From Myxococcales bacterium (GTDB lineage: Bacteria; Myxococcota_A; Polyangia; Polyangiales; Houyiibacteriaceae), in NCBI GenBank assembly GCA_019637115.1, contig JAHBWH010000034.1:1-55745 (forward strand): a stretch of 55,745 nucleotides of DNA, written 5' to 3'. The notes beneath the pieces were generated by a model. That model was not told the origin of the DNA and searched no databases. It saw nothing but the letters and a program-made list of their open reading frames with translations. Each line of letters opens with the position of its first letter. Positions within the stretch are counted from its first letter, which is position 1. Shown piece after piece: positions 9,905 to 49,766 of the stretch. A program made the position numbers and the translations under genes.

Positions 9905-10024
<120 letters not shown>

Positions 10025-12811: not shown

Positions 12812-13018
<207 letters not shown>

Positions 13019-13149
13019 CTCCGACGCAGCGCGGACGCGGACTCGGCGACGCGCTCGAGGGCGCGCAGCAACGCGTGCGAGCGTGAGCCCTCGCACGCTC
13101 GCGGCGGCCTACGATGGACGGTGCCCTTCGACTGAGGCACGAGCCTGAG

Positions 13150-27360: not shown

Positions 27361-27579
27361 TCAGCGACAGCCGTCCTGGATCGCCTGCACGGTGGCCCGG
27401 CACTCGTTCGCGGGGACGATCCCCGCCGAGGGCAGCGGCGTGACGGTGGCGCCGTCTCGCGTCGTGCAGGTCGCGGACCGTCCGTCGCCCTGGACGGCGC
27501 AGCCGCGGCTGCGACAGAGCGAACGCAGCGCGGCGTCGTTGCAGTTGACCCCGTCCTGACGCGGCGCGCGCCGAGCCTG
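27361..27579 (-). pseudogene. Cys-rich protein fragment
   Basis: A minus-strand frame bounded by stops reads DGVNCNDAALRSLCRSRGCA, then SATCTTRDGATVTPLPSAG and ends in QAIQDGCR. The regular cysteines and normal composition look like the C-terminal end of an exported Cys-rich protein. It has no start codon or signal sequence, so it is probably a remnant. Confidence 0.5.
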
Positions 27580-27586
27580 CTACGCT

Positions 27587-27816
27587 GTGCGCGGGCAAGG
27601 AAGAGAGGCGTGCTGCTGGGGCAACCTCTGCGCAACCCCCGCGTGCGCCGCCGCCGCCTCGTTGCCGCATGGGTGTAACGTCCGTGGCTGCCCGGAGGGC
27701 GAGCGCTCCGTCGTCGACCCGGCGGCGGGCGCGCGCCGTCGAGCTGCGAGTGCAGCGAAGGCGGCGTCTGGAACTGCACGCGCGACTGCGGCGGCGGTGT
27801 CTGCGTCGCGGAGTAG
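27587..27816 (+). pseudogene. Frameshifted Cys-rich protein fragment
   Basis: One frame reads CCWGNLCATPACAAAASLPH, then GCNVRGCPEGERSVVDPAAG. A different frame continues with PSSCECSEGGVWNCTRDCGG and ends GVCVAE at a TAG. Joining them needs a one-base indel near 27735 and gives a typical myxobacterial Cys-rich domain end. A TACGCT -10-like box directly precedes the GTG at 27587. Confidence 0.55.
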
Positions 27817-27910
27817 CCGATGGCAGATCGGCGAAGCGGTCGACCGGGAGGAGGCGTTCATGAGCGTGCTGCGGTCGGCCGCGGAGCCACCGCGAGCGGA
27901 TCGGAGGTCC
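27817..27910. other. Spacer with a stranded start signal
   Basis: GGGAGGAGG followed by ATG at 27860 is a very good ribosome-binding site and start. The frame beyond is only antisense to the helicase gene. It may be the surviving 5' end of a deleted gene. Confidence 0.35.
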
Positions 27911-30900
27911 TCAGCCCGCCGCGAGCCGTCGAAAGAGCGTCTCGCCGGCGCGGACGAAGCCCGCGTCGAGCAGCGCGGGCGCGAGGCGCGAGGCGCTGGC
28001 GGGCTCTCCGTCGAGGTGCGTGAGCTCCACGCCGGCCCCACCGCGACGCCCTCTCGGCAGCCCCTCCCCCCGGCCGAGCGCCTCCGCGAGCGCGCGGAGG
28101 GCGCGCCCACGCTCCGGCTCCGAGTCGGGCAGGAAGGTCGTCACCCGCCGCCCGCCTCGCGCGAGCGAGGCGACGAGCCTCCCCTCGAAGAGCACGACCC
28201 GCGCGCCCGCCTGCCGCTTCGGCGGCTCGCCGGCCTCGGCCCGAGGCCAGCCGAGCGCCGCGCCCCAGACGTTCGCGGGGTCGTCCGCCGCGAGCACCCG
28301 CGCCGGCTCGGCGCGGGCGTCGTCGCGGTGCGCGCGCAGCCGGTCCTCGCAGCCAGGCAACGCGAACTGCGCCGCGCCGAGCCCATCGACGAAGTGCCCG
28401 CGGCGCACCTTCCCCACGTCCTCCATCGCCCGCAGCACCGGGTAGACCGCGCTGAACCCACCCGGCACCCCCATCGCCTGGAGCTCCGCGTGCACGCCCT
28501 CCCGGAGGAGCACGCCGTGCCGCTCGAGGAGCTGCGTCGAGAGCGCCTCGAGCCGCGCGGTGGTGTCCGTCGACGCCGCGGGAAGCCGCGACCACCGGCC
28601 CTCCGTCCCAGGCGGCCCGACGACCCCGCGCCCCGTGAAGCGTCGCGCGGGGCGCGCCCCACGCTGCGTAGGAGCCCGCCGCGAGCGCAGCGGCGCGAGC
28701 GTGTCGTTCGTCACCTCCCCGCACCACACGAGATCCCAGAGGGCGTCCGCCACCTCCGCGGGCATGCGCCCCGTCTCGGCGACGAGATCGCGGAAGAAGA
28801 CCGCGCCCCGCCCCGCGAGGATCGCGCGGAGCGCGGCGTCGAGCTCGCAGCCTTCCTCGCGCTCCCGGGCGATCGGCGCGAGCAGCGGATAGTGGTCCGA
28901 GAGGTAGAGCGCGACGCGGCCGTCCTTCTCGCCGAGCGGCTGGAGGCCGCGCCAGACCACCTCCCCCGACGCGCAGAGCTCGTCGAGGTCGCGCGGGTCG
29001 AACGAGGCGAGCCGCGCGGGCAAGACGCGGGCCTCGAGGTCGCTCGCGGGGATGGGCACGCCCTGCAGCTGCTCGATCACCTGCGCGAGCGCGTCGACGC
29101 CGCGGCGGGCGCTCCCCACGCCGTGCCACGCGAGCACGAAGCGCTGGTACGCGGCGACGTCGACCGCCTCGACCTCGGCGCGTAGCTTGGCGAGCGATCG
29201 CCGCTTGATGCGCCGGAGCACCTCGACGTCGCAATACTCGACGGCGCCGACGTGGCCTCGCTCTCGCACCAACGCGAGCGGCAAGAGCTCGCCCTTCGTG
29301 AGCCGCCCCGCGTCGACGAGCCGCTCGAGCGCCTCCCGCACGGGCGCGACGCCGAGCCCGAGCCGCGCCGCGCACGCCTCGGCGACGAAGGGCCCGTGCG
29401 TGCGCGCGTAGCGGCCCACGAGCTCCCCGAGCGGATCGCGCGCGGGCTCCAGCAGCGTCTGCGGCAGCCCGCGCGGCGGCACGACGCCGAGCGCGTCTCG
29501 GTACCGCGCCACGTCCTCGACGGCGAGGAGCCGCGGCTCGCCGGCGATGCGCACCTCGACGATCCGCCGCGCGTCGAGGAGTGACGCGATCCAGCGGTCG
29601 AGCGCGCCATCGAGCGCGGCGTCACGGCCCACGCCGCCGCCTCGTTCGGTGCGCGCGCGGAGCGCGTCAGGTCCGAGCGCGGCGTCACGGCCCACGCCGC
29701 CGCCTCGTTCGGCGCGCGCGCGGAGCGCGTCAGGTCCGAGCGCCGCGCCATCGGGCTCGGAGGCCTCGGCGAGCTCGGCCGCGACTCCGAGCGCGCCCTC
29801 CTCGTCGCGCCCACGCTCGGACGCCTTGGCGAGCTCGGCCGCGGCTCCGAGCGCGCCCTCCTCGCCACGCCCGCGCTCGGAGGCCCCGGCGAGCTCGGCC
29901 CGGCTCCGGTCGCCGAGCGCGAGCAAGCGATCGTGTACGTCGTCCTCGCAGGCGAGCGGGCGATCGAGGCGAAGCAGCGCGCGCTCCACCTCGCGAACGG
30001 CGTCGACGTCGAGGAGCTCGCGCAGCTCGGGCTCGCCGAGCAGCGCCCGCAGCTGCGTGTGGTCGAGCGTCAGCGCCTGCGCGCGGCGCTCGGCGAGGGG
30101 CGCGTCCCCCTCGTAGAGGAAGCTCGCGACGAAGTGGAAGAGCAGCGCCGCCGCGAAGGGCGAGGGCTGCCGTGTCTCGACCGAGCGCACGCGGATCTTC
30201 CGAGCGCGTACGTCGCGCAGGATCGAGACGAGCCCGGAGAGATCGAAGACGTCGCGCAGCACCTCGCGATACGTCTCGAGCAGGATGGGGAAGTCCGGGA
30301 TCTCGGAGGCCACCTGCAGGAGCTGCGCGCTCTTCCTGCGCTGCACGAAGAGCGGCGTGCGCTGCCCCGGGCGCCGCCGCGGCAAGAGCAGCGCGCGGGC
30401 GGCGTTCTCGCGGAAACGCGCCGCGAAGAGCGAGGTCTGGCCGACACGCGCGGTGACCAGCGCCTCGACCTCGTCGGGGTCGGGCAGGAAGAACGTGTCG
30501 TCGGGCGGGTCGTCGACGTCGGGGAAACGGAAGACGACGCCGTCGTCCGAGCAGAGGACGTCGACGTCGAGCCCGCGGTCACGCGCCAGCAGCGCTTGGA
30601 CGGCCTGCGACCACGGGGCGTGCACGGGCGCGCCGAAGGGAGAGAGCAGCGCGACGACGTGGTCGCCGAGCTCGTCTCGGAAACGCTCGATCACGATCCG
30701 GCGATCGGTCGGGACCTCGGAGGCCTCCGCCTGCTCGCGCAGGTAGCGGACGAGGTTCTCTGCCGCGAGCGCGTCGAGGCCATGGTGCGCGACGAGCGTC
30801 GCGGTCGCGTCGCGGTCCGAGCGCCTGGCGAGGTCGCGCGCCAGCTCGCCGACCGCGCGACCGAAGTCGAGCGGCCGGCCCAGGCCATCACCACGCCAGA

Positions 30901-32965
30901 AGGGCATCTTTCCCGGCTCGCCCGGCGCGGGGCTGACGAGCACCCGGTCGTGGGTGATCTCCTCGATGCGCCAAGAGCTCGCGCCGAGCCGGAAGACCTC
31001 GCCCGGCTGCGACTCGAAGACCATCTCCTCGTCGAGCTCGCCGACGCGGATGGGCTTGTCCTGCCCCGCCAAGAAGACGCCGTAGAGGCCGCGATCCGGG
31101 ATCGTCCCGGCGTTCGCGATCGCGAGCATGCGCGCGCCCTTGCGCGGCGTGAGCGTCCCCGCGAGCCGATCGTAGGTGACGCGCGGCCGCAGCTCACCGA
31201 AGCGCTCGCTCGGGTATCGCCCGCTCAAGAGATCGAGCACGCCCTCGAAGCTCCGGCGAGGCAGCTCCACGAAGGGCGCCGCGCCGCGAACGAGCTGGTA
31301 GGCCTCGTCGACGCTCACGCGGCCGCGCTCGACCATGAGCGCGACGAGCTGCTGCGCGAGCACGTCGAGCGGGTTGCGCGCGTAGTAGGTGGCCTCGACG
31401 TGGCCCTCGCGGACGTGCCGCACGACCGCGGCGCAGGCGAGGAGGTCGCCGCGGAACTTCGGAAAGATGCGTCCGTGGCTCGTCGCGCCGACCTGATGCC
31501 CCGCGCGGCCGATGCGCTGGATCCCCGACGCGACGCTCGGGGGCGCCTCGACCTGGATCACGAGGTCGACCGCGCCGATGTCGATGCCGAGCTCGAGCGA
31601 GCTGGTCGAGACGATCGCGGGGAGCACGCCGCGCTTGAGCTGGTCCTCGATCTCCGCGCGCGCGTCCTTCGCGAGCGAGCCGTGGTGAGCGCGGCAGATC
31701 GGCTCCCCCGCCAGGTCGTTCAGCGCCGCCGCGAGCCGCTCGGCGAGCCTCCGGCTGTTGACGAAGATCATCGTCGAGCGGTGGGTGCGGATGAGCGCGA
31801 CGAGCCGCGGGTGGATGGCGGTCCAGAGGCTCGGCCGGTGGGGCGTGGACACACCTTCGGGGTCGATGGTTTCGCTGGTGTGTCGGTCTCCGTGTCCGTG
31901 TCCGTGTCCGAGTTCGTGTTCGTCTCCGTGTCGGGGTCCGAGTCCGGGTCCGAGTTCGTGTTCGTCTCCGTGTCGGGGTCCGAGTCCGGGTCCGGGTCCG
32001 TCTCCGAGTCTGGGCCCGCGGCCGTCTCCGAGTCCGTGTCCAGGTGCGTCTCCGGGGCCGTCTCCGAGTCCGTGTCCAGGTCCGTCTCCGAGTCTGGGCC
32101 CGCGGCCGTCTCCTCCGGCGTCGAGGCTCGGGACGTCGCCGAAGACGTGGGATGCGTCGTAGCGACCGACCGCCTCGCTCCCCAGCCGAGCCATATCCTC
32201 CACGGGCACCTCGACCCGGATGTCGAAGTCCTTGCGCTGGCCCGCGTCGAGGATCGTCACCGGTCGCGGCGCGCCGTCGACGAAGCCGCCGAGGAAGCGC
32301 GCGACCTCGTCGAGCGGGCGCTGCGTGGCCGAGAGCCCGACGCGCTGCATCGGCGCGGGCGCGCCCGCGGCGGCGCGCAGCGCCTCGAGACGCTCGAGCG
32401 AGAGCGCGAGGTGGGCGCCGCGTTTGGTGGGGACGAGGTTGTGGATCTCGTCGACGATGAGGGTCTCGACCCGCGCGAGCGTCGCGCCCGCGCGCGAGCC
32501 GAGCATCAGGTAGAGCGACTCGGGGGTGGTGATGAGGATCTCGGGGGGCTCGCGGCGGAGGCGCTCACGCTCGGCGGCGGGCGTGTCGCCGCTGCGGATC
32601 CCCACCGAGACCTCGCGCGCCGCCACGCCCTCCCGGGCCGCCACGGCACGGATCCCCGCGAGCGGCGCGCGGAGGTTGCGCTCGATGTCGACCCCGAGCG
32701 CCTTCAAGGGCGTGACGTAGAGGACCCGGACACCGGGCTCGGAGGGTTTGGGACCGAAGCAGAGTCGATCGACCGCGACGAGGAAGGCGCTGAGCGTTTT
32801 GCCCGAACCGGTCGGGGCCAGCAGCAGGGTCGAGTCGCCGAGGCCGTCGCAACCGTCGCGCCTCGCGAGCACCGGCCAGGCCTTCGACTGCGCGAGGGTG
32901 GGCGCCTCGAAGCTCGATTCGAACCAGCGGCGCGTGCAGGGGTGCGCGAAGTCGAGGGCGCTCAT
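27911..32965 (-). CDS. lhr: Lhr-type large ATP-dependent helicase
   Basis: About 1684 residues, longer than the roughly 1500 usual for Lhr. RecA1: Walker A APTGSGKT (50-57), motif Ib TTPES, DEIH (172-175), SATQRP. RecA2: MIFVNSRRLAE, STSSLELGIDIGAVDLVIQV and QRIGRAGHQ. Winged-helix and beta-barrel regions follow, then a long C-terminal region (from about residue 880), which in Lhr resembles the AlkZ glycosylase fold. The enzyme would unwind DNA or RNA-DNA hybrids in repair. Two in-frame insertions are made of tandem repeats: residues about 285-360 between the RecA domains and about 1023-1118 in the C-terminal part. Starts up to 32995 are possible, none with a Shine-Dalgarno. Confidence 0.93.
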   Translation of the reverse strand: MSALDFAHPCTRRWFESSFEAPTLAQSKAWPVLARRDGCDGLGDSTLLLAPTGSGKTLSAFLVAVDRLCFGPKPSEPGVRVLYVTPLKALGVDIERNLRAPLAGIRAVAAREGVAAREVSVGIRSGDTPAAERERLRREPPEILITTPESLYLMLGSRAGATLARVETLIVDEIHNLVPTKRGAHLALSLERLEALRAAAGAPAPMQRVGLSATQRPLDEVARFLGGFVDGAPRPVTILDAGQRKDFDIRVEVPVEDMARLGSEAVGRYDASHVFGDVPSLDAGGDGRGPRLGDGPGHGLGDGPGDAPGHGLGDGRGPRLGDGPGPGLGPRHGDEHELGPGLGPRHGDEHELGHGHGHGDRHTSETIDPEGVSTPHRPSLWTAIHPRLVALIRTHRSTMIFVNSRRLAERLAAALNDLAGEPICRAHHGSLAKDARAEIEDQLKRGVLPAIVSTSSLELGIDIGAVDLVIQVEAPPSVASGIQRIGRAGHQVGATSHGRIFPKFRGDLLACAAVVRHVREGHVEATYYARNPLDVLAQQLVALMVERGRVSVDEAYQLVRGAAPFVELPRRSFEGVLDLLSGRYPSERFGELRPRVTYDRLAGTLTPRKGARMLAIANAGTIPDRGLYGVFLAGQDKPIRVGELDEEMVFESQPGEVFRLGASSWRIEEITHDRVLVSPAPGEPGKMPFWRGDGLGRPLDFGRAVGELARDLARRSDRDATATLVAHHGLDALAAENLVRYLREQAEASEVPTDRRIVIERFRDELGDHVVALLSPFGAPVHAPWSQAVQALLARDRGLDVDVLCSDDGVVFRFPDVDDPPDDTFFLPDPDEVEALVTARVGQTSLFAARFRENAARALLLPRRRPGQRTPLFVQRRKSAQLLQVASEIPDFPILLETYREVLRDVFDLSGLVSILRDVRARKIRVRSVETRQPSPFAAALLFHFVASFLYEGDAPLAERRAQALTLDHTQLRALLGEPELRELLDVDAVREVERALLRLDRPLACEDDVHDRLLALGDRSRAELAGASERGRGEEGALGAAAELAKASERGRDEEGALGVAAELAEASEPDGAALGPDALRARAERGGGVGRDAALGPDALRARTERGGGVGRDAALDGALDRWIASLLDARRIVEVRIAGEPRLLAVEDVARYRDALGVVPPRGLPQTLLEPARDPLGELVGRYARTHGPFVAEACAARLGLGVAPVREALERLVDAGRLTKGELLPLALVRERGHVGAVEYCDVEVLRRIKRRSLAKLRAEVEAVDVAAYQRFVLAWHGVGSARRGVDALAQVIEQLQGVPIPASDLEARVLPARLASFDPRDLDELCASGEVVWRGLQPLGEKDGRVALYLSDHYPLLAPIAREREEGCELDAALRAILAGRGAVFFRDLVAETGRMPAEVADALWDLVWCGEVTNDTLAPLRSRRAPTQRGARPARRFTGRGVVGPPGTEGRWSRLPAASTDTTARLEALSTQLLERHGVLLREGVHAELQAMGVPGGFSAVYPVLRAMEDVGKVRRGHFVDGLGAAQFALPGCEDRLRAHRDDARAEPARVLAADDPANVWGAALGWPRAEAGEPPKRQAGARVVLFEGRLVASLARGGRRVTTFLPDSEPERGRALRALAEALGRGEGLPRGRRGGAGVELTHLDGEPASASRLAPALLDAGFVRAGETLFRRLAAG
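29612..29737. repeat. Two 63-bp tandem repeats inside lhr
   Basis: Units 29612-29674 and 29675-29737 are nearly identical and keep frame. On the coding strand they encode LGPDALRARxERGGGVGRDA twice (21-residue units). Confidence 0.85.
29757..29895. repeat. 60-bp tandem repeats inside lhr
   Basis: About 2.3 copies of a 60-bp unit encode SERGRGEEGALGAAAELA-type 20-residue repeats. They lie next to the 63-bp array, so this part of the helicase has expanded twice. Confidence 0.75.
31884..32112. repeat. TCCGTG-type hexamer tract inside lhr
   Basis: About 38 degenerate hexamers (TCCGTG, TCCGAG, TCCGGG, TCTCCG). A 42-bp block is duplicated exactly (31910-31951 and 31952-31993), and longer segments around GTCTCCGAGTCTGGG recur near 32001 and 32084. 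On the coding strand it reads as a Gly/Asp/Pro/His stretch (GDGPGHGLGDGPGDAPG) between the two RecA domains. The unit length keeps frame. Confidence 0.9.
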
Positions 32966-33051
32966 CGCCATCAGCATGGCACGGACGTGTGACACCCCGT
33001 CCGGCCGCCCACCTCGTCGAGGGTCCGTGACCCGATCGGGGCCCTCGATGG

Positions 33052-33057
33052 TACCGT
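33052..33057 (+). promoter_or_regulatory. Putative -10 box TACCGT, leaderless start
   Basis: TACCGT ends six bases before the ATG at 33064 with no Shine-Dalgarno. GTGACC at 33027-33032 could be a weak -35 (19-bp spacer). Confidence 0.35.
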
Positions 33058-33063
33058 CCCTCG

Positions 33064-34158
33064 ATGCAGCGACTCTTCTTGGCCTCGATGGCTCTGGTCG
33101 TGCTCGGGTGCGGTGACGACGACACCTCCGGCGACGCGGACGCGGCGCGCGACGCGGCCCCCCTAGCCGACGCCGCGCCCTCGGACGCCGCGCCGGTCGA
33201 CGCAGACCTCACTGACGTCGGGGCCAACGTCGACCCCGATGGTGGCGCCGACGCGGGCGGGCCGCCGCCCCGATGCCCCGCAGGCTCGGAGTCGCTGACC
33301 TTGTCCCTCGACGGCGCGCGCCTCGAGCGGGTGCCCGGCGTGCCGGTCCGCGACGGCTTCGCGGACGGCTGGGCGGTCGTCGAGGGGCCAGTGTGGGCGC
33401 GCGGCGCGCTCTACGTGACGCACTTCCCCGGCGGCGCCACGCCCCCCGCTCGGATCTACCGTGTCGCGGAGGGATCCGTCTCCGTGGTCGCGCCGAGCGC
33501 CGGCACCAACGGCCTCGCCCTCGGGACCGACGGCCGCCTCTACGGCGGACGCCACGCCGACGGCTCGATCTCCGTCTTCGACTGGGACGACCTGAGCGCG
33601 CCGCCGACACCCGTCGTGCGCACGTACGCTGGCGCGCGCTTCAACAGCCCCAACGATCTCGCCTTCCGCTCCGACGGCCACCTCTACTTCACCGACCCCG
33701 ACTGGCAGGCGCCAGCGACGCGCCCGCAGACGGCCGAGCGCGCCTACCACGTGACGCCCGACGGGAGCGTGACGCCCATCGACGGCGCCCCGAACAAGCC
33801 GAACGGCGTCACGCTCTCGCTCGACGAGTCGTCGCTCTTCATCAGCGGCCAGAACGGCCTCCGCCGCTTCGACCTCGGCGCAGACGGCGCGGTGGTTGGT
33901 CGTGGGATGAACGTGCCCGCCGTCTCGGGTGGCCTCGACGGCATGGGCCTCGACTGCGCCGGCAACCTCTACGTGACGGGCGGCGGCCGCGTGACCGTGC
34001 TCAACCCCGCCCTCGAGCGCATCGGGCAGCTCGACGCGCCCGGCGCGACGAACGTCGCGTTCGGCGGAGAGGACGGCAGGACGCTCTACGTCACCGCCCT
34101 CGGCGACGACCCTGGGCTCTACCACGTCCGCCTGAACGTCCCTGGCCTCCCCTACTGA
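33064..34158 (+). CDS. SMP-30/gluconolactonase-like lipoprotein
   Basis: A 364-residue lipoprotein: MQRLFLASMALVVLGC, then GDDD and a long Asp/Ala spacer. The domain is a six-bladed beta-propeller of the SMP-30/gluconolactonase/LRE type: VVEGPVWARGALYVTHFPGG, TNGLALGTDGRLYGGRHADG, NSPNDLAFRSDGHLYFTDPD, KPNGVTLSLDESSLFIS and GGLDGMGLDCAGNLYVTGGG. The E, N and D positions that bind metal in this family (EGP, NGL/SPND, DG) seem present. It would hydrolyse a lactone or related ester in the periplasm or at the surface. It is divergent from lhr, 98 bp away. Confidence 0.9.
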   Translation: MQRLFLASMALVVLGCGDDDTSGDADAARDAAPLADAAPSDAAPVDADLTDVGANVDPDGGADAGGPPPRCPAGSESLTLSLDGARLERVPGVPVRDGFADGWAVVEGPVWARGALYVTHFPGGATPPARIYRVAEGSVSVVAPSAGTNGLALGTDGRLYGGRHADGSISVFDWDDLSAPPTPVVRTYAGARFNSPNDLAFRSDGHLYFTDPDWQAPATRPQTAERAYHVTPDGSVTPIDGAPNKPNGVTLSLDESSLFISGQNGLRRFDLGADGAVVGRGMNVPAVSGGLDGMGLDCAGNLYVTGGGRVTVLNPALERIGQLDAPGATNVAFGGEDGRTLYVTALGDDPGLYHVRLNVPGLPY

Positions 34159-49106: not shown

Positions 49107-49711
49107 AGGCGTTCACGACCCGCGTCGGCGCGTTGGCGCTCGTCGCCCTCGGACTCTCCTCGCTCGCTCCAGCGTCCGCCGCCGCGGAGGACAAGACACG
49201 CGTCTCCTTGTACTTCGCGCTCGGCGCGGGGGGACAGTCCACCGCGCGTGTCGAAGGCCGCTCCACGAGCGGTGGCCTCGACCCGACGCTCGGCGCCGGC
49301 CTCCGCCTCGAGTACCTGGTGCTCGAGTACCTCGCGATCGGCGGGATGTTCGAGATGGGTGGCTACAAATACGATGGCCGCTCGCGTGAGGCCGACCTCT
49401 ACTTCGACTTCGACGCTTGGGTGAAGGGCCGCTACGTCTTCGACCTCGGCTCGTTGAAGCTCGAGGCCTACCTCGGCCTTCCCTTCGGGCTGACCGCCTT
49501 CCGGCCTGACCGCGCCGACAACGAGGTCGGGTTCAACACCGGCCTGCTCGGCGGCGCCTCGCTGCTCTTCGACCGCTTCGCGCTCTTCGCCGAGCTCGGC
49601 TGGCGCCGACGCCAGTTCCGGAGGAGCGAGTCGATCTTCGGCATCGACATCGTCGCGCGGGTCTTCACGAACCAGCTCGCGATGCACTTCGGCGCGACCG
49701 TGTTCTTCTGA
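49103..49711 (+). CDS. Outer-membrane beta-barrel protein
   Basis: A 202-residue protein with signal peptide MKAFTTRVGALALVALGLSS, cleaved after ASAAAE. The rest alternates amphipathic strands (RVSLYFALGAGGQSTARVEG, LRLEYLVLEYLAIGGMFEMG, WVKGRYVFDLGSLKLEAYLG, RFALFAELGWRRRQFRR) and ends HFGATVFF with a C-terminal Phe, the outer-membrane assembly signal. About eight strands are likely (OmpA/OmpW size). It is the last of the coupled kinase operon. Its transcript may end in the GTCCGA tract downstream. Confidence 0.88.
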   Translation: MKAFTTRVGALALVALGLSSLAPASAAAEDKTRVSLYFALGAGGQSTARVEGRSTSGGLDPTLGAGLRLEYLVLEYLAIGGMFEMGGYKYDGRSREADLYFDFDAWVKGRYVFDLGSLKLEAYLGLPFGLTAFRPDRADNEVGFNTGLLGGASLLFDRFALFAELGWRRRQFRRSESIFGIDIVARVFTNQLAMHFGATVFF

Positions 49712-49721
49712 GTCGAGCGAC

Positions 49722-49766
49722 CGAGTCCGAGTCCGAGTCCGAGAGTCCGAGTCTGAATCCGAGTCC
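49722..49766. repeat. Short GAGTCC hexamer tract
   Basis: Seven degenerate GAGTCC units start 11 bp after the barrel gene stop. Confidence 0.7.

Follow-up and report, generated by a model that had tools for sequence, protein, structure and literature searches.

Several families of short tandem repeats are dispersed in bacterial genomes. The GGGNATC heptamers of Xanthomonas and Nostoc are scattered, vary in copy number, lie for the most part outside genes and are depleted in coding DNA; their preference for four units has been tied to G-quadruplexes (PMC4692102). The TAACTGA heptamers of Beggiatoaceae and cyanobacteria include a few copies inside open reading frames, which survive mainly at the periphery of the protein (PMC4679880). 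At the protein level, the passages considered here of a survey of low-complexity regions (LCRs) place myxobacteria in four of the top five positions for LCR enrichment among bacteria and discuss slippage as a source; these passages neither trace LCRs to one hexamer family nor describe the case of lhr presented below (PMC6821194).

We analyzed a stretch of 55,745 nucleotides of a Myxococcales genome (hereafter the window), in which a hexamer satellite runs in frame through lhr, the gene of a large helicase-related protein. Dispersed short tandem repeats are already known in bacteria, and this case is of the same kind, with a frame-neutral unit. Like the GGGNATC repeats, the satellite consists of one short GC-rich unit, dispersed in the genome in variable copy number and mostly extragenic. 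However, it is a hexamer found in tens of units, no unusual folding is predicted for it, and in-frame coding arrays are common. An assignment of the tract to the GGG quadruplex type, i.e., the Xanthomonas/Nostoc heptamer with its four-unit preference, was rejected, as the unit is CNCGGA/TCCGNG and the tract has about 37 units. Like the TAACTGA repeats (PMC4679880), the satellite is dispersed, short, and in part read through in open reading frames. Unlike them, it is a frame-neutral hexamer whose consensus is free of stops in every frame, and in conserved enzymes some of its arrays are found between domains. The frame-neutral unit is what enables the satellite to enter such enzymes. The genome-wide pattern is more interesting than the lhr insert itself. 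The case is a clear instance in bacteria of a single microsatellite family that expands within coding sequence throughout a genome, and it offers a natural experiment on the loops and reading frames that a proteome will tolerate. It is also a warning, since automatic annotation of such genomes can miss or fragment genes that contain arrays, and assemblies break at arrays.

The hexamer tract and its host protein

The product of lhr is assigned to Lhr on the basis of its domains, its C-terminal winged helices and its invariant motifs. The families PF00270, PF00271, PF19306 and PF08494 score above their gathering thresholds; a DEAD and Helicase_C core is followed by WH_Lhr and DEAD_assoc, which is the domain order of Lhr, and the Lhr winged-helix families PF19306, PF23234, PF23235 and PF23236 are all present. 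The frame has a strong coding signal over its 1694 codons (Table 1). GSGKT, DEIH, SAT, QRIGRAGH and all other columns that are invariant across 45 Lhr cores are retained (G54-K57-T58, D173-E174-H176, S213-A214-T215 and Q484-R485-G487-R488-H491, in the numbering of the trimmed sequence). The nearest PDB entries are 7lhl and 5v9x, both of Mycobacterium smegmatis Lhr, and residues 1132-1683 match 7lhl with phmmer. As a member of the family, this protein would be expected to have 3'-5' translocase and repair activities.

Table 1. Positions in the window of lhr, its domains and inserts, and of the satellite arrays
Feature	Position	Strand	Details
lhr, large helicase-related protein, 1694 aa	27911..32995	-	single unbroken frame, GTG start
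RecA1 (DEAD, PF00270, residues 35-226)	32318..32893	-	domain match
RecA2 (Helicase_C, PF00271, residues 401-499)	31499..31795	-	domain match
RecA1-RecA2 linker, 120 residues (269-388)	31832..32191	-	median 21 in 44 relatives
TCCGNG hexamer satellite, ~37 units	31880..32113	+	lhr sense strand CNC GGA = [HRPL]-G
Exact duplication, 42-bp period	31906..31994	+	47 identical bases at lag 42 (31906-31952 vs 31948-31994)
Second internal duplication	31995..32112	+	34 bases, lag 84 (31995-32028 vs 32079-32112); 26 bases, lag 36
Second in-frame tandem-repeat insert, 60- and 63-bp units, residues ~1042-1122	29611..29908	-	found by TRF; lacking in the relatives compared
Pure TCCGAG/TCCGCG array	9905..10023	+	intergenic
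Related hexamer array (CTCGGT/CGCGGA units)	12812..13046	-	between called genes
Short CCGAGT array	49710..49766	+	directly after frame ending near 49708

A first reading of the sequence alone (the sequence-only reading) had proposed a tract of TCCGTG/TCCGAG-type hexamers at positions 31884-32112, and three approaches agree on it. Identity at lag 6 is 0.68 in this interval against 0.34 window-wide. TRF reports a period of 12 with 17 copies (31889-32094) and a period of 42 with 2.6 copies (31894-32001). Finally, head-to-tail 6-bp units exceed chance, as expected of a hexanucleotide microsatellite: the window has 40 matches to three TCCGWG units (at most 2 mismatches) when 0.12 are expected from dinucleotide shuffles. 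Read in phase from position 31889, the tract starts with TCCGTG TCCGTG TCCGTG TCCGAG TTCGTG TTCGTC and comprises 37 units, with a consensus TCCGNG in which base five is free. The exactly duplicated 42-bp block of the same reading is present, and the identity in fact extends over a few more bases (Table 1). All duplication steps in the tract (36, 42 and 84 bp) are multiples of 6.

In the protein, the tract corresponds approximately to residues 295-371, between the DEAD and Helicase_C matches, as had been proposed. Its translation of 76 residues (Gly 28, Pro 10, Asp 9, His 9, Leu 8, Arg 7, Glu 4, Ala 1) is indeed rich in Gly, Asp, Pro and His, with Leu and Arg frequent too. The free base of the unit falls on the second position of the codon CNC (His, Arg, Pro or Leu), where changes are nonsynonymous. 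The entropy of this base is 1.73 bits in the lhr tract versus 1.88 in the intergenic arrays, and that of the third codon bases is 0.30 versus 0.35 and 0.70 versus 1.17. This pattern supports upkeep at the level of DNA rather than of protein, and the comparison of unit-position entropies between the lhr tract and the intergenic arrays gave no sign of selection on the peptide of the insert. We also found no indication of an unusual nucleic-acid structure: the predicted folding of either DNA strand, or of the RNA, is not stronger than that of shuffled sequences (z between about +0.8 and +1.0), and there was no Rfam match in 27500-33500.

The distance between the RecA1 and RecA2 anchors is 120 residues, compared with a median of 21 and a range of 8-65 in 44 relatives. 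This loop of Lhr apparently accommodates some 100 additional residues. In an AlphaFold model built from the 45-sequence alignment, the pLDDT is about 30 throughout the insert and 84-93 in the surrounding residues; the insert is predicted to be fully disordered and the helicase core to fold normally. The domains and the fold appear to be common to this product, to M. smegmatis Lhr (5V9X, 7LHL) and to Escherichia coli Lhr, and the modelled core aligns to 5v9x over 747 residues (Z 48.0, rmsd 2.4). In M. smegmatis Lhr, however, the flanks PVPDMANLDNN and SIWPDVEERIV are practically adjacent, whereas here they are separated by the long linker, and the product bears in addition a second repeat insert near residues 1042-1122. 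Judging from the alignment and the model, the insert lies in a naturally variable linker between the RecA folds and inside neither of them. The claim that the satellite had invaded the helicase core thus holds as regards the in-frame expansion of a genome-wide satellite, but not as regards the core. The protein resembles an intact Lhr whose RecA1/RecA2 hinge contains a long floppy loop, a picture compatible with a tolerated insertion.

The satellite in the genome and in other genes

The sequence-only reading had noted a like satellite between genes elsewhere in the window, and three arrays bear this out (Table 1). At the genome level, we searched for four consecutive TCCGWG units with up to 2 mismatches, using the reversed pattern as a control. 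The 8.9-Mb source genome has 2125 matches and the control none. Within the family, G007 has 206 matches, G008 has 134, and the others have 0-31. The distribution across 115 genomes of the order is patchy, with zero matches in most and 95-373 in a few; the expansion of the satellite across the order has been sporadic and probably occurred several times. In G035, a 4.3-Mb genome from another family of this order, there are 2263 matches, as many as in the source genome at half the size, and its expansion is likely independent. Arrays are often near contig ends, as in contigs C13, C19, C27, C148, C221 and C416 of the source genome. The draft assembly seems to break at arrays, which makes the array counts lower bounds.

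To place lhr among the hosts of the satellite, we classified arrays in a 1.86-Mb sample of the genome that was not selected for arrays. Of 37 classifiable TCCGNG arrays, 12 run in frame through genes and 25 do not or are ambiguous, where in-gene status rests on gene calls from a simple codon-usage script. About one third of the sampled arrays are therefore in genes, and lhr is not special as a host. Array-bearing proteins include a RecD-like helicase, an MMPL transporter, a HEAT/cNMP-binding protein and an RCC1 protein, to which an array-selected sample adds an alpha-amylase and an AMP-binding/reductase enzyme. Several of the in-gene arrays are located between or outside recognised domains. 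The array of the RecD-like helicase is absent from G007, G002, G031 and G032, and that of the HEAT/cNMP-binding protein from the last three.

The in-gene arrays show a bias in their reading frame: 10 of 12 are in Ser-x or x-Asp frames, when one third is expected (binomial p 0.0005). Without locus L168, really a Pro-Ala tract, the proportion is 9 of 11 (p 0.0014). The array of L188 (Arg-Thr) is probably outside its gene, whose domain begins at residue 501. The bias is suggestive, in this small sample, of filtering by peptide chemistry. The lhr tract is the exception, with its Gly-rich [HRPL]-G frame. Periods that are multiples of 3 are found in 58 of 60 in-gene arrays and 121 of 203 others, a comparison that we did not count in support: an array is classed as in-gene only if its frame is unbroken, which makes the comparison partly circular.

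Origin of the lhr insert

The sequence-only reading had named absence from relatives as a sign of recent expansion. In the comparison of lhr genes, the hexamer repeat is missing from G002, G031 and G032, which belong to other genera of the family, and from the Sandaracinaceae MAGs MED-G138 and ACE_MYX11. In G001, from yet another genus of the family, the same loop carries TCCGAC/CCCGAC hexamers on the sense strand, encoding Ser-Asp and Pro-Asp. This run differs in orientation and frame, and to judge by its sequence the loop was probably hit independently. We therefore rejected an insert ancestral to the family, given both the genomes without it and the different, oppositely oriented unit in G001. 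An 18-bp unit is present three times at the same loop in lhr of Sorangium So ceGT47, and is absent from two other Sorangium strains. These comparisons point to the RecA1-RecA2 loop of Lhr as a permissive site that is used repeatedly. The only genome of the same genus compared here, G007, is silent on the date of the hexamer insert: its contig C99 breaks off at residue 867 of lhr, before reaching the hexamer site, and the N-terminus of lhr was not found. It does cover the stretch of the second insert, which is absent from it and from six other relatives. The simplest reading is that, since the split between the two species of the genus, this lhr would have acquired one tandem insert or more.

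The explanation we favor, with a probability of about 0.85, is that the tract is a slippage-driven and tolerated expansion, at a permissive loop of Lhr, of the TCCGNG satellite amplified in this species. Growth would have proceeded by whole hexamers and by blocks, in line with the duplications observed, and replication slippage or unequal recombination would have driven it. In Myxococcus xanthus, the measured mutation rates of simple tandem repeats are far above those of other sites (PMC11069108), so that slippage is a plausible driver. The reading frame is kept because 6 is a multiple of 3, the loop would tolerate the expansion because the length of this connection already varies widely in relatives, and the helicase fold is predicted to be unaffected by the extra residues. 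Arrays are mostly intergenic, and purifying selection would leave those in genes only where frame and fold survive. The occurrence of in-gene arrays mostly in favored frames, and in several cases between or outside domains, fits such a purging of harmful insertions, and not a selected function. The arrays themselves may have been seeded by the copying of satellite DNA between loci.

The position of the insert, exactly at the hinge of the two motor domains, and the gain of repeats in the same loop by two other lineages are what one would expect of a selected, length-tunable linker, which would alter RecA1-RecA2 closure or add a Gly/His/Asp-rich contact surface. This suggestion of the sequence-only reading finds no support in the comparison with the intergenic arrays and is very improbable: variability in the unit peaks at a nonsynonymous base, with an entropy about as in these arrays, and the third positions are no freer than there. 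Furthermore, the same satellite is found in unrelated genes, the loop repeats of other genera encode quite different peptides, and insert-free Lhr is the rule. We give as little chance to a decaying lhr, in which the repeat would mark relaxed selection toward a pseudogene. The gene does have two separate repeat inserts and a peptide composition that is unusual relative to the other in-gene arrays, but both inserts keep the single open frame, the coding signal is strong, and every column invariant across the 45 cores is retained. Satellite reads from elsewhere might also have been collapsed or joined into lhr by the assembly, a draft of 434 contigs where arrays are often at contig ends. Yet such an artefact is hardly credible: the tract is imperfect, has internal duplications of its own and lies in the middle of its contig, at 31.9 of 55.7 kb, and it leaves the frame intact and connects two halves of a single orthologous gene. 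A broader scenario can be added to the tolerated expansion, where one hexamer family serves as a scattered supply of disordered segments that repeatedly seed permissive loops of conserved enzymes, including the Lhr hinge, are filtered by frame, and in some cases later become linkers; it seems to us unlikely.

Some loci outside the window have peculiarities of their own. In L280 (contig C236 of G007), a (SDTV)n repeat takes the place of the hexamer array in the orthologue of the AMP-binding enzyme, and the frame of this orthologue begins at that point, where the contig ends. In L201:3842-7798 (contig C416 of the source genome), alpha-amylase and radical SAM/SPASM domains are in one open frame, parts of which are separated by a Val-Ser-Asp-Ser hexamer array; this may reflect a fusion or a missed frame break. 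Finally, L232:4831-5091 has about 31 copies of a 9-bp unit, which translate into a Val-Leu-Leu repeat within an open frame with coding-like flanks.
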